The notes under the pieces: generated by a model
What the model was told of the DNA's origin: nothing
Database searches by the model: none
Seen by the model: the letters and a program-made list of their open reading frames with translations, nothing else
Part shown: piece by piece, positions 2,173-7,531 of the stretch
How positions within the stretch are numbered: position 1 is the stretch's first letter
Layout: every line of letters begins with the position of its first letter
Translations under genes and position numbers: made by a program
Assembly: GCA_021372675.1 (NCBI GenBank)
Contig: JAJFTZ010000121.1
Location: 1-54,708 of the forward strand
Direction: 5' to 3'
Origin: Eubacteriales bacterium
GTDB lineage: Bacteria; Bacillota; Clostridia; Christensenellales; CAG-138
Length of the DNA stretch: 54,708 nt

Positions 2173-3435
2173 CTAGCGCAGCTCGCCTTCGCTGTACCTC
2201 GCGGCGATCGTATCGTCGGAGGAAAAATACATAAGCCGCTCCAGACGCTCCTCCAGCGTGAGCGGGCGCGTTTCGGGCAAGCGGGAATCGTCGAGCACGA
2301 GCGCGTGGAGCGCGTCGCCCGCCTGAAAGCCCGGCCCCGCGCCGAAATAGGCCTGCCCCGCGGAGGTGGCGAGGTAAAAAGCCTCCGCCACGGTAAGGAA
2401 GTCCTCCTTTTTATCGGAGAGAAGCCAGCGTATTTTGGAGGTGCGCACGGCCGACGTAGCCGAATCGCGCATGGATAAGAGCGCGCCGCCCGCAATATCG
2501 GTGCCGAGCACCACGTTTAGACCCTCCTCGAGCATCCGCCTTACCGGCGCGAAGCCGGAGGCGATGTTCATGTTGGAATCCGGGCAATGCGCCACGACGA
2601 CGCCCGCCTCCTTCATGGCGGCGCGCTCCCGCTCGCCGGAGTACACGCAATGCGCCATGATGGTGTTCTCGATCCACAACCCGTACTTTTCGTAGGTTTC
2701 GTAATAATATTCGCTGTCGGGATGCAGGGCCTTTACCCATTCCACCTCCTGCCGGTTCTCGGAAAGGTGCGACTGCACGCGGACCCCGTATTCCCTTTGC
2801 AGCTTTCCTAGGCCCGCCATAAGCTCGTTGGAGCACGAGGGGGTAAAGCGCGGCGTGAGGATGGGCGTTAGATGCTTGTAGCGCCCCTTGCACTCCTCGA
2901 GGAAGCGGCGCGTTTCGAGAAGCGATTCCTCCGTGGTCTCGCGGGTATCGTCGGAGCAGTTGCGGTCCATATTGACCTTGCCTACATAACCCGTTACGCC
3001 CGCGCGCTCAAGCTCCTCCATGAGCACATGCGTGCTTTCGCGATGCACGCTCGAATAGACCGCCACGCGCGTGGTGCCTTTTTTGATGAGGGCGTCGGCA
3101 AACATGCGGTACACGCGCCGCGCGTAGGCGGTATCGGCAAACCGCGCCTCGGTCTTGAAGGTATATTTGTTGAGCCATTCGATCAGCTCCAGGTCCATGC
3201 CCATGCCGAGCATGGCGAACTGCGGCGCGTGCAGGTGCATGTCGCAAAACGAGGGGATGATGAGCTTATCGCCGTAATCCTCCACCCGCACGCCGCGGTA
3301 TTCCCCGGGCAATACCTTAAATACGCCCTCGATCACGCCGTTTTTCGTAACGATATATCCGTTTTCGACGCATGTAAGCTCCGTTCGCTTCTGCGCGTAG
3401 ACTACGTTCCCCTTAAGTACCTGAATGCTTCGCAT
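2173..3435 (-). CDS. guaD: Guanine deaminase
   Basis: Amidohydrolase-superfamily zinc enzyme that deaminates guanine to xanthine and ammonia in the cytoplasm. The 420-aa protein has the metal-binding HLHAPQ motif (His67/His69) within PSFCDMHLHAPQ, the later metal/substrate motifs SHLSEN and AHCVY, and the metal Asp in GTDIAGG. All are typical of bacterial guanine deaminases. The start is the ATG 6 bases after AAAGGGGACA; a 12-codon upstream extension has no ribosome site. It is the last gene of the hydantoinase-mocA-guaD unit. Its product xanthine is the substrate of the divergently encoded molybdenum hydroxylase. A related deaminase such as SsnA is less likely because of the HAPQ motif. Confidence 0.88.
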   Translation of the reverse strand: MRSIQVLKGNVVYAQKRTELTCVENGYIVTKNGVIEGVFKVLPGEYRGVRVEDYGDKLIIPSFCDMHLHAPQFAMLGMGMDLELIEWLNKYTFKTEARFADTAYARRVYRMFADALIKKGTTRVAVYSSVHRESTHVLMEELERAGVTGYVGKVNMDRNCSDDTRETTEESLLETRRFLEECKGRYKHLTPILTPRFTPSCSNELMAGLGKLQREYGVRVQSHLSENRQEVEWVKALHPDSEYYYETYEKYGLWIENTIMAHCVYSGERERAAMKEAGVVVAHCPDSNMNIASGFAPVRRMLEEGLNVVLGTDIAGGALLSMRDSATSAVRTSKIRWLLSDKKEDFLTVAEAFYLATSAGQAYFGAGPGFQAGDALHALVLDDSRLPETRPLTLEERLERLMYFSSDDTIAARYSEGELR

Positions 3436-3529
3436 GTTGTGTCCCCTTTCCATCCGATGGCCGATCGGCATGACGCCGAAAAACTAAAATGCCGGCGCAC
3501 CCCGCAAGCTTACGCGACGGCGCGGAAAA

Positions 3530-4126
3530 TTATGCCCCGTTTTGTTCCTTTGTAAGCTCCTTGAGGCGCGTAAGCTCGGCGACGCTGTCCACGTCGTAAA
3601 GCTCCAGCTCGTCCTCAAGCTCAAAAAGAAGCAAATCCTCGGAGTGGTTCCTTATGACCTCGCTGCCGCCGCTGTCCTCGTAAAGCCCCCGAAGGTCCTC
3701 AAAAAAGCGCTTGGGGAAAATGGCCGGGTTGCCGCGCCGTGTGCCGTGCCCCATGGCCACGAGGTTATCGGGGTTCGCGCGGAAATACGCGATTTCCGCC
3801 TCCACGCTTTCCCGCCTGAGCTTGGGCTGGTCGGCCACGAGGAACATCAGCGCGTCCGCGTCTTTTAGCGCGTCCATGCCGAGGCGTATGGTGCGGCTGA
3901 TGCCGTCCTCGGGGCGGTCGTTCTCGATCGCCAGAAAGCCGCGGCTTTTCGCGAGCTCTATCACGCGCGGGTATTGCGTCACCACCGCAACCTTGTAAAA
4001 CTCCCCCTCGGGGATCACGCAAAGCGCGCGTTCCGCGAGCGTTTTTCCCTCGAACATGGCGTCGAGCTTGTTGACGCCGAAGCGGCTGCCGCTGCCCGCG
4101 GCCATCAGGATACAGCCTAGCTTCAT
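3530..4126 (-). CDS. mocA: MocA-like molybdenum cofactor nucleotidyltransferase
   Basis: A 198-aa GT-A-fold NTP transferase of the MocA/MobA-like group. Such enzymes add CMP to molybdopterin to make the dinucleotide cofactor used by xanthine-dehydrogenase-type enzymes. The N-terminal nucleotide loop is LMAAGSGSRFGVNKL (residues 7-21), with Lys20 in the expected position. MFLVADQP supplies the metal-binding Asp, and RRGNPAIFP is the conserved downstream motif. Its ATG overlaps the stop of the hydantoinase gene (ATGA), so the two are translationally coupled. The neighbouring xdh genes make maturation of that enzyme the natural role. CTP preference is inferred. Confidence 0.85.
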   Translation of the reverse strand: MKLGCILMAAGSGSRFGVNKLDAMFEGKTLAERALCVIPEGEFYKVAVVTQYPRVIELAKSRGFLAIENDRPEDGISRTIRLGMDALKDADALMFLVADQPKLRRESVEAEIAYFRANPDNLVAMGHGTRRGNPAIFPKRFFEDLRGLYEDSGGSEVIRNHSEDLLLFELEDELELYDVDSVAELTRLKELTKEQNGA

Positions 4127-5490
4127 ACCGTTTTTTGATACCTTTCCCGTGCGATGTATTTCCCCGCGCCGCTTCCCTTCAAAACGCCGTTCTCCACGAC
4201 GTGCCTGCCGTTCAGCAGCACGTCGCGCGCGCGGCCTCTCACCGCAAAGCCCGCGTACGGGGAGTTATCACAATGATGCGCATGATCGGTATCGGTTATG
4301 CGCCCCTGCGCGTTCGGATCCCAAACCACGATATCCGCCGCCATGCCGGGCCGTATTTCGCCGCGGTCGGGCATGCCGAAAAGGAGGGCGGCATTTTTCG
4401 ACAGGCTCTTCACCATCTGTTCGAGACTAAGCTTGCCGGTCAGCACGCCGTAGGTGTACATGAGCTGCGGCCGGTGCTGTACACCCGGCGCGCCGTTGGG
4501 TATTTTTGTAAAATCACCTTCCCCCATGGCCTTTTGCGCCATGGTGAAGGAGCAATGATCGGTGCCTACGGTTTGTATGGCGCCCGCCGAAAGCCCGCGC
4601 CAAAGCGCCTCGCGATCAGTCTCCTGCCTAAGCGGCGGGCTCATCACAAACTTGGCGCCGTCAAAATCTTTATACCGTTCGTCGGTGAGCAGAAGATACT
4701 GCGGGCAGGTTTCAAGGTAAACCTCCTGGCCGCGCGCTCTAGCGCGCTCCGCTTCAAAAAAGCCCTCGGCGGTGGAAAGGTGCACCACATACGCGGGCGT
4801 TTGCGCAAGCTCCGCGATGCGCAAAAACCGCGCCACGGCCTCCGCCTCCACGGCGGCGGGCCGGGAAAGCGGGTGGCCCTCGGGGCCCAAAATGCCGCGC
4901 GCCTTCACCTCGTCGCACATCCGAAGCAGCACATGCCAGTTCTCGCAGTGGGCGCCGATGAGCGCCCCGCGCTTTTTTGCCTCCTTGAGCGCGGCGTAGA
5001 TCTGTCCGTCGTCTACATAAAGGCCGTTATAGACCATGTACATTTTATAGGAAGTAACGCCCGCGGCGGTCATATCGTCCATCTCGGCGGCGGTCGCTTC
5101 ATCCCACCGCGCGATGGCCATGTGAAAGCCGTAGTTGCAGGAAGCGCCCCGCGCCTTTTTATGCCACATTTCGAGCGCGGCCTTGAGCGTGCCGTTTCTA
5201 TCCTGCGTGGCGAAATCGAGCACCGTGGTGGTGCCGCCCAACACCGCGGCCTTTGAGCCTGTATCGAAGTTATCGGCGGTGACCGCGCTGCCCGTATCGA
5301 GGTCGAAATGCGTGTGCGTATCGATGAAGCCGGGCATCACGTACATGCCCGAGGCGTCGATAAGTTCCGCGCCGTCCGGCACGGGCATCCCCTTTTGCAC
5401 GCTTTCGATGCGCCCGTTTTCCACGAGTACATCCGCCTCGAAGCGGGAATCGAAATTGATGACGGTGCCGTTTTGAAGAAGCGTTCGCAT
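4123..5490 (-). CDS. hydA: Dihydropyrimidinase / D-hydantoinase
   Basis: Cyclic-amidohydrolase family enzyme opening dihydropyrimidine or hydantoin rings. The 455-aa protein has the binuclear-metal HxH (His59/His61 in FIDTHTHFD), the carboxylated bridging Lys149 (TSYKMYM), His181 (AHCEN), VHLST and GTDHCSF, all where the family has them. The start chosen is the ATG 11 bases after GGAGGGGAG; 36 in-frame codons upstream are rejected because they cross the riboswitch terminator. It is the first gene behind the variant purine riboswitch. Hydantoinases of this kind often sit in purine/molybdenum-hydroxylase clusters, where the real substrate is not settled. Confidence 0.85.
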   Translation of the reverse strand: MRTLLQNGTVINFDSRFEADVLVENGRIESVQKGMPVPDGAELIDASGMYVMPGFIDTHTHFDLDTGSAVTADNFDTGSKAAVLGGTTTVLDFATQDRNGTLKAALEMWHKKARGASCNYGFHMAIARWDEATAAEMDDMTAAGVTSYKMYMVYNGLYVDDGQIYAALKEAKKRGALIGAHCENWHVLLRMCDEVKARGILGPEGHPLSRPAAVEAEAVARFLRIAELAQTPAYVVHLSTAEGFFEAERARARGQEVYLETCPQYLLLTDERYKDFDGAKFVMSPPLRQETDREALWRGLSAGAIQTVGTDHCSFTMAQKAMGEGDFTKIPNGAPGVQHRPQLMYTYGVLTGKLSLEQMVKSLSKNAALLFGMPDRGEIRPGMAADIVVWDPNAQGRITDTDHAHHCDNSPYAGFAVRGRARDVLLNGRHVVENGVLKGSGAGKYIARERYQKTV

Positions 5491-5543: not shown

Positions 5544-5652
5544 AAACAAAAAGCGCCCGCGCAGAATATGCCCCATCTGCGCCGGACACCCATAGCAAGA
5601 GCCGAAGGCGGCTCCGTAGAAACTCCCGCGCCGTTTCGCGGAATTATATGAG
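5544..5652 (-). ncRNA. Purine-type riboswitch (loop-contact-less variant) with intrinsic terminator
   Basis: RNA read on the minus strand. P1 pairs CTCATA (5652-5647) with TATGGG (5594-5589). P2 is CCGCG/CGCGG with loop AAACGG. P3 is GAGCCG/CGGCTC with loop CCTT. The core segments CATATAAT, GTTTCTAC (J2/3) and CTATG (J3/1) match the guanine/adenine riboswitch core. The bases equivalent to U22, U47, U51 and C74, which contact guanine in the xpt aptamer, are all retained. Position 73 is G instead of A. The conserved L2 and L3 sequences that form the kissing contact are absent. A 13-bp stem with one bulge (5589-5576 with 5565-5553) follows, then TTTTTGTTT: an intrinsic terminator touching the P1 3' strand. 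It lies between a promoter and a purine-catabolism operon. The ligand is probably guanine or a relative; direction of control is unresolved. Confidence 0.82.
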
Positions 5653-5669
5653 AACCTGCTTACGGCATT

Positions 5670-5698
5670 ATCTTACCATCCTCACGGTGTTTTTGCAA
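5670..5698 (-). promoter_or_regulatory. Sigma-A-like promoter of the riboswitch-hydA-mocA-guaD unit
   Basis: TTGCAA, a 17-base spacer and TAAGAT on the minus strand. Transcription would begin near 5663, about ten bases before the P1 stem of the aptamer, which is the usual geometry. Confidence 0.65.
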
Positions 5699-5848: not shown

Positions 5849-7531
5849 TTGAAGCAGCACGAGCTGATCCAGGCGGCGCTTGAGGGCCGAGCGACCTATG
5901 CGATAAAAAACGCGCGCGTTGTAAACGTGTTTACCGGCGAGATACTCGAAGCCGACGTCGCCGTTTATGAGGATACCATAGTCGGCGTCGGGCGCTTCGA
6001 CGCCGAGCGGGAGTATGACGCAAAAGGCGCATACCTCTGCCCCGGCTTCATCGACTCGCACGTGCACATAGAATCCTCGATGGTGATCCCCCCATCCTAC
6101 GCGCGCGTCATCATGCCGCACGGCACCACGGGCATCATCGCCGACCCGCACGAAATCGCCAACGTGGCGGGCGTGGAGGGCGTGCGCGCCATGTACAAAT
6201 TCAGCGAGGGGCTTCCCCTGCGCGTCTATTTTATGATGCCCTCCTGCGTGCCCGCCACCAAGTTCGAGACCTCGGGCGCGGAGATCCTCGCGGAGGACAT
6301 GGCGGCTTTCTCCAAAAAAAGCCGCATCCTTGGCCTTGGTGAGGTGATGGATTATACGAGTACCATCCACGGCGACAAGGATATGCTCGATAAGATACGC
6401 CTGTTCGAAGGCCGCCCCATCGACGGGCATGCCCCGCTCGTATCCGGCCGTGAGCTCAACGCCTACCGCATCGCCGGCCCCTCCACCGACCATGAGTGCT
6501 CCAACTACGACGAGGTTTTAGAAAAGCTTCGCACGGGCATGCGCATCATGCTCCGGGTGGGCTCAGCCGCCAAGGGCATGGATGATATTTTCCGTAAGAT
6601 CGCGCAAAATAAGCTTCCCACCGAAAATATGACCTTCTGCACCGACGACAAGCACATCGAAAACATCCGCGCCGAGGGGCATATCAATTGCATCGCGCGG
6701 CTCGCCGTTTCCTGCGGCATAAGCCCCGTGGATGCGGTGAAGATGTCGTCCTACAACGCGGCGCGCATCTACGGCCTCAAGCGCGCGGGGGCGGTGGCGG
6801 TGGGCTACCGCGCCGACATGGTGCTTTTCAGGGACCTTGAAAGCTTCGAGGTCGTTCAGGTGTTTACGGGCGGCGAACCGTATGTGGATAGGGAATTCCC
6901 CTACCCGCCCATCCCCAAGGAGGTGTTCGGCAGCGTGCGCATGGCGCCGCTCACCGCCGACTCGTTCAAGCTCAAGACCGACACGGACGTGATGCCCGTG
7001 ATACGCATGGTGGAGGAGCAGCTCGTGACCGAGCTCGTCTACCGTAAGGCGCGCGTTGAAAACGGCGCGTTCAGGCCGGACGAAACCCTTACGAAGCTCG
7101 CGGTGATCGACCGCCATCACGCCACGGGCAGGATGGCGCTCGGCATCGTGGAGGGCCTAGGTATCGTGAACGGAGCTATCGCCTCCACCGTGGCGCACGA
7201 CTCGCACAACCTCGTGGTGGCGGGCGATAACGACGCCGACATGCTGATGGCCGCGGATTCCCTGCGCGACTGCGGCGGCGGCTACAGCGTGGTGAGCCGA
7301 GGCGTCGTCATCGCGCGGCTGCCGCTCCCCGTAGCGGGCCTTATGACCGACGCGCCCATCGACGGCGTGGTCGAGCGCCAGCGCGCGCTTCTCGACGCGG
7401 CGTACAGCCTCGGCGCGAAAAAAGGCAGCGACCCGCTCATCGCTCTTTCCTTCCTCGCCCTCCCGGTGATCCCCGAGGTGCGCCTGACCGACAAAGGCCT
7501 GTTCGACGTGGCGAAGATGAAATTCATCTGA
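5849..7531 (+). CDS. ade: Adenine deaminase
   Basis: Deaminates adenine to hypoxanthine. The 560-aa protein has the Ade/YfkN-type layout: an N-terminal amidohydrolase domain with the metal site HVHIESSM (His71/His73), the conserved DPHEIANV, and GHAPLVSG. A C-terminal adenine deaminase domain carries DRHHATGRMALG, VAHDSHNLVVAGDN, and LPLPVAGLM. The start is TTG, 5 bases after AAGGAGGGG, and there is no competing ATG. It leads a unit with xdhA, xdhB and xdhC (61 bases to xdhA), so its hypoxanthine can be oxidised by the next gene products. Confidence 0.93.
   Translation: MKQHELIQAALEGRATYAIKNARVVNVFTGEILEADVAVYEDTIVGVGRFDAEREYDAKGAYLCPGFIDSHVHIESSMVIPPSYARVIMPHGTTGIIADPHEIANVAGVEGVRAMYKFSEGLPLRVYFMMPSCVPATKFETSGAEILAEDMAAFSKKSRILGLGEVMDYTSTIHGDKDMLDKIRLFEGRPIDGHAPLVSGRELNAYRIAGPSTDHECSNYDEVLEKLRTGMRIMLRVGSAAKGMDDIFRKIAQNKLPTENMTFCTDDKHIENIRAEGHINCIARLAVSCGISPVDAVKMSSYNAARIYGLKRAGAVAVGYRADMVLFRDLESFEVVQVFTGGEPYVDREFPYPPIPKEVFGSVRMAPLTADSFKLKTDTDVMPVIRMVEEQLVTELVYRKARVENGAFRPDETLTKLAVIDRHHATGRMALGIVEGLGIVNGAIASTVAHDSHNLVVAGDNDADMLMAADSLRDCGGGYSVVSRGVVIARLPLPVAGLMTDAPIDGVVERQRALLDAAYSLGAKKGSDPLIALSFLALPVIPEVRLTDKGLFDVAKMKFI

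Follow-up and report, generated by a model that had tools for sequence, protein, structure and literature searches.

The leader at 5544-5698, on the minus strand of the Eubacteriales bacterium contig JAJFTZ010000121.1 (its 54,708 nucleotides are referred to here as the window), precedes a set of purine-breakdown genes, which raises the question of what RNA it encodes, which purine this RNA senses and in which direction it controls the genes behind it. The initial annotation had read it as a variant purine riboswitch without the loop-loop contact, ahead of an operon of hydantoinase, mocA and guanine deaminase that faces xdh genes. This gene arrangement was recovered, together with a divergent adenine deaminase, which is followed by XdhABC reaching 11272:

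4123-5490, minus strand: hydantoinase, first gene (TIGR02033, 531.6 bits; cut-off 393)
3530-4126, minus strand: MocA-like nucleotidyltransferase, second gene (below the TIGR03310 cut-off)
2173-3471, minus strand: guanine deaminase-like, third gene (TIGR02967, 348 bits; cut-off 375)
5849-7531, plus strand: adenine deaminase, divergent (TIGR01178, 565.5 bits; cut-off 472.5)

The leader proved to be a genuine purine riboswitch. Scanning it with the Rfam Purine covariance model (RF00167), as had been proposed, gave 44.2 bits against a cut-off of 37 and the sole match across the 2.56 Mb genome; with the operon genes identified as above, the reading of a purine riboswitch variant ahead of a purine-breakdown operon was borne out. 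A model of the family leaders called set B below (R1, built in the present analysis) places the aptamer core including P1 at 5586-5656 and scores the window aptamer at 76.7 bits, the window itself being within the R1 training set. In xpt numbering, the aptamer is laid out as follows:

5573-5671, minus strand: purine riboswitch aptamer, RF00167 match
5647-5652, minus strand: P1 5′ strand, six contiguous pairs, xpt positions 16-21
5637-5643, minus strand: P2 5′ strand UUCCGCG, with 7 of 7 P2 pairs changed on both sides in relatives
5631-5636, minus strand: L2 AAACGG, ending in G37 G38, complementary to the CC of L3 (18 of 18 relatives)
5624-5630, minus strand: P2 3′ strand CGCGGGA, supported by covariation
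5616-5623, minus strand: J2/3 GUUUCUAC with U47 and U51, identical in 17 of 18 relatives
5609-5615, minus strand: P3 5′ strand GGAGCCG, its first base G54 in place of C54
5605-5608, minus strand: L3 CCUU, with C60 C61 retained and A64-A66 gone
5598-5604, minus strand: P3 3′ strand CGGCUCU, with U72 paired to G54
5595-5597, minus strand: J3/1, with the extra U (5597), G73 (5596) and C74 (5595)
5589-5594, minus strand: P1 3′ strand UAUGGG, pairing extendable, its end common to the terminator

RF00167 matches were found in 32 of the 103 genomes of the window's family and in 53 of 396 genomes sampled from the order. The 33 family hits split into two sets, which were drawn from gene context and sequence, so that the contrast between them is a descriptive one, and related sequences do not count as independent. 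Set A carries C54, A73 and a P1 of the type GCCAAUA/UAUUGG and precedes xanthine phosphoribosyltransferase-like genes in every case with a readable downstream gene (14 of 15), as judged by shared N-terminal sequence with one gene verified by NCBIfam. Set B comprises 18 leaders, the window included, with mostly G54 (A54 in two, C54 in one), G73 in 14 of the 18 and a P1 of the type CUCAUA/UAUGAG, and the gene that follows is a hydantoinase (14), a guanine deaminase (2) or an 8-oxoguanine deaminase-like gene (2). Guanine deaminase lies within the controlled unit in all 12 set-B contigs that are long enough, twice as the first gene, and in one genome (G002) the riboswitch is located between MocA and guanine deaminase. 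The sister genome Christensenella sp. UBA7707 encodes a hydantoinase 82% identical to that of the window. Among the class-wide hits read, hardly any outside the window's family had breakdown genes downstream, with one weak adenine deaminase match (L218). The set-B model found no diverged aptamer ahead of the family's remaining hydantoinase genes. In L061, a hydantoinase leader about 400 bases upstream of 4703 contains a terminator and hairpins resembling P2 and P3, gives no match to this model, and may be a riboswitch that has decayed or diverged strongly.

The three-way junction core first noticed in the leader (CATATAAT, GTTTCTAC and CTATG) is present in full, and so are the guanine-contacting bases of xpt (U22, U47, U51 and C74), all four of which are unchanged in 18 of 18 set-B leaders. 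J3/1 of the window holds one extra U, at 5597, without counterpart in the relatives or sister species. The helices were supported by covariation in homologous leaders, a check that had accompanied the initial annotation. In an alignment of 17 distinct set-B aptamers, standard pairs occupied 91.3% of the P1-P3 cells versus 80.9 ± 1.2% in shuffles, double-changed cells numbered 47 versus 19.5, and pairing fell to 38-56% when the partners were slid out of register. Changes on both sides were seen in 7 of 7 P2 pairs, 4 of 6 P3 pairs and one P1 pair, for which a second, independent count was made. The aptamer region of the window alone folds no better than its shuffles (z -0.15), and the minimum predicted for it pairs P1 with P3, in competition with the aptamer fold.

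The proposal that L2 and L3 are unable to kiss did not stand. In xpt, the kissing contact consists of the Watson-Crick pairs G37-C61 and G38-C60, joined by the non-canonical U34-A65 and A33-A66 (PMC3764141, PMC5480868), and these outer loop-quadruple partners are conserved in the purine riboswitch family (PMC3764141). AAACGG keeps G37 and G38 and CCUU keeps C60 and C61, so that both Watson-Crick pairs could be formed in the window, where U34, A65 and A66 are absent; as far as the loop sequences tell, the contact is reduced, not lost. Across set B, 18 of 18 leaders have an L2 dinucleotide beside P2 that complements the L3 dinucleotide, with L2 lengths from 6 to about 29, and one member (L009) carries a compensated A37-U61 in place of G37-C61. 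On this complementarity and the compensated change, a loop-less purine aptamer class was rejected. Given sufficient magnesium, xpt with the G37A/C61U change still makes the loop contact and binds its ligand (PMC5480868); L009 is thus a natural case of a combination studied as an xpt mutant, other members have a four-base L3, and set B amounts to an experiment of nature on the extent of loop-loop contact that a guanine aptamer requires. The CC lies one base later than that of xpt in most set-B members, a shift also seen in 42 of 55 other leaders of the order, and L111, outside the family, apparently has GC/GC by eye, that is, a swapped G38-C60. Nor did the precedent of natural loop-less variants hold, because guanine-II, xanthine-II and 2′-dG-III keep their kissing loops and are altered in J2-3 and J3-1 (Hamal Dhakal et al. 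2022, PMC9295807).

Compared with known systems, the window aptamer is most readily set beside guanine-I (xpt type, RF00167), with which it shares the three-way junction, the pocket bases of J1/2, J2/3 and J3/1, and the GG of L2 and CC of L3. The pocket bases, three covarying helices and the G37-C61 and G38-C60 kissing pairs are all found in the window and set B, whereas U34-A65 and A33-A66 have no equivalent in the window. It further differs from guanine-I by G54 and G73 (C54 and A73 in xpt), by the short L3 without A64-A66, by a terminator on the P1 3′ strand and by breakdown genes where guanine-I has salvage genes. G73 and the altered first P3 pair, here G54-U72, had been correctly noticed, but they are not diagnostic: the combination also stands ahead of xpt in another family (f57, L191), and G54/G73 was rejected as a specificity signature. 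The same G54-U72/G73 core occurs in L215, L225 and L226; among 84 parsed class-wide hits, G73 is present in 13 and G54-U72 with G73 in five, including the xpt leader of one genus. Since the combination occurs at xpt genes, the classical guanine target, it implies no new ligand and is compatible with guanine sensing.

Guanine-II resembles the window in its guanine-class pocket with U51 and its predicted ON switching, but it controls phosphoribosyltransferases, and its J2-3 carries a one-base insertion and its J3-1 further insertions (PMC9295807), whereas throughout set B J2-3 is of normal length and J3-1 is normal save for the one U of the window. Xanthine-II is likewise linked to purine-breakdown genes and described as consistent with ON switches, but its U51G and two inserted J2-3 bases/junction insertions are absent from the window. 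The 2′-dG-II model (RF03165) gave the window 40.1 bits in a local scan, with a better E-value than that of RF00167, and was listed first for four set-B leaders including the window, all at 36-41 bits; G54 after C53 is a further likeness. This assignment was rejected despite the E-value, because the score is 20 bits below the cut-off of 60 and U51 is retained, the position at which 2′-dG-II has C; J1/2 and J3/1 also differ. The window leader is a conserved, modest variant of the guanine riboswitch, not a new loop-less one, and a new-class label is not justified for it or for the other set-B leaders, in which guanine binding is a prediction.

The leader was also annotated as being framed by a promoter and a terminator, of which the terminator was supported by folding (-22.9 kcal/mol, z -3.6, 0 of 200 shuffles as good) and the promoter is weak: TTGCAA-17-TAAGAT matches 8 of 12 consensus bases and falls below the scan threshold; its hexamers and spacing are shared with the sister species. 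The automatic promoter/terminator scan of the window reported neither element, the terminator having a loop over the length limit of the scan, and its outcome was given no weight as evidence. The candidate elements are:

5693-5698, minus strand: candidate -35 hexamer TTGCAA (4/6 match to TTGACA; same in the sister species L059/L006)
5670-5675, minus strand: candidate -10 hexamer TAAGAT, spacing 17 (4/6 match to TATAAT; same in sister species)
5576-5589, minus strand: terminator 5′ arm GUGUCCGGCGCAGA, overlapping P1
5553-5565, minus strand: terminator 3′ arm UCUGCGCGGGCGC, from folding and the shuffle test
5544-5552, minus strand: U-tract UUUUUGUUU, read from the sequence

Compensated changes in the terminator foot are seen in the two sister species (GUGUCC/GGGCGC versus GUGUCU/AGGCGC). 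In 18 of 18 set-B leaders, positions 77-79 mark the start of the best hairpin with a U-tract, and 1-8 nt of the terminator 5′ arm also belong to the P1 3′ strand, a count in which the window's terminator was defined by separate folding and not by the automatic T-run choice; the overlap is as small as 1-2 nt in L003, L004 and L027. By comparison, the 5′ P1 strand can re-pair downstream, an antiterminator layout, in 41 of 62 other leaders of the order versus 1 of 18 in set B. Because of this P1/terminator overlap as opposed to downstream re-pairing, set B appears to be laid out as ON and set A as OFF. In the adenine pbuE riboswitch, too, the P1 3′ strand is part of the terminator and the ligand turns the genes on; it shares this feature with the window but has U74 and binds adenine, whereas the window has C74. 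What is new here is a family-wide set of 18 ON-layout leaders at purine-breakdown genes, with the canonical OFF-type aptamer standing before xpt in sister genera.

From this layout and gene context we infer that the guanine-class riboswitch is probably a transcriptional ON switch for guanine breakdown, with guanine as its ligand. Without ligand, the nascent RNA would fold the strong terminator that starts inside the P1 3′ strand, and transcription would end before the operon. Abundant guanine, on the other hand, would bind at the three-way junction, pairing Watson-Crick with C74 and contacting U22, U47 and U51, and would lock P1, removing the shared bases from the foot of the terminator stem, so that the polymerase could read into the hydantoinase, the MocA-like protein and guanine deaminase. 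The terminator state is predicted at -50.9 kcal/mol versus -43.3 kcal/mol for the forced aptamer state, a gap of about 7.6 kcal/mol, and binding must therefore act during transcription (kinetic switching). Guanine or xanthine had been named as the expected ligand, a sensible choice for a breakdown operon; guanine is favoured because the pocket is unchanged, guanine deaminase is the common gene and xpt provides a precedent for the same core. The G37A mutant of xpt loses hypoxanthine binding and keeps guanine binding (PMC5480868), and for this reason the reduced loop contact also points to guanine. Ligand binding in the window could be weaker because U34/A65 are missing and a U is added at 5597.

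It is rather unlikely that the same ON switch responds naturally to xanthine, hypoxanthine or an oxopurine mix and in this way reports a general purine surplus to the neighbouring xanthine dehydrogenase pathway. The divergent XdhABC and adenine deaminase found at the locus in several relatives would suit such a signal, and in the classical pocket xanthine and hypoxanthine are bound less well than guanine by a factor of only about 10 (PMC9295807), but the gene common to the 12 long contigs is guanine deaminase, which is sometimes the sole riboswitch-proximal gene. Moreover, the xanthine-II hallmark U51G is not present, and it was hypoxanthine binding, not guanine binding, that the weakened loop contact of xpt G37A cost (PMC5480868). 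We regard it as improbable that the window copy alone is decaying or non-switching while set B as a whole is functional, since every core base is intact, the promoter hexamers, aptamer and terminator align with those of the sister species and the terminator arms co-vary, although the extra U missing from the sister species, an aptamer fold not above shuffles and the related hydantoinase leader of L061 without a model match would all agree with decay.

Least probable is 8-oxoguanine as the ligand, as in the Paenibacillaceae 8-oxoguanine riboswitches, which are reportedly ON switches upstream of 8-oxoguanine deaminase and a class defined by pocket mutations. Two set-B leaders, L003 and L004, stand directly upstream of 8-oxoguanine deaminase-like genes (that of L003 above the NCBIfam cut-off), and the L027 operon has such a gene after guanine deaminase; against this, all 18 leaders keep the guanine-contacting bases, and most set-B members control guanine deaminase. 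It is less likely than not, though a fair possibility, that set B forms a separate guanine aptamer subclass, in which an L3 trimmed to the two-pair kiss and G54/G73 would tune it to guanine (or 8-oxoguanine) alone, at the higher levels of a breakdown sensor, with sister genera keeping the classical OFF aptamer at xpt.

If guanine-driven ON switching is true, one bacterial family puts the same guanine sensor to opposite uses by genus, OFF at salvage (xpt) and ON at guanine breakdown, and the family-level label 'Purine riboswitch' conceals the direction of control. This gut-type Clostridia family has probably wired a guanine-class RNA sensor in reverse, with breakdown genes on when guanine is plentiful.

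Several other purine aptamers were met among the genomes. One with G54-C72, U55-A71, a bulged U in P3 and G73 (L035:1501-1603, minus strand) stands directly upstream of an adenine deaminase-like gene with 43% identity to that of the window; its bulged-P3 form also occurs in other families, at L214, L228 and L269, with an apparently OFF layout at L214. In another family of the order, an aptamer with extra J3/1 bases (CCAGGC; L052:1501-1602, minus strand), directly upstream of an XdhA-like gene with 69.8% identity to the XdhA of the window, is a possible relative of guanine-II or xanthine-II. In a different family, an aptamer with U73 that precedes guanine deaminase (L050:1501-1598, minus strand) is apparently an independent link of the purine riboswitch class to guanine breakdown. 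At both L187 and L189, an IMP dehydrogenase-like gene lies downstream of a purine aptamer that has A54-U72 and U73.
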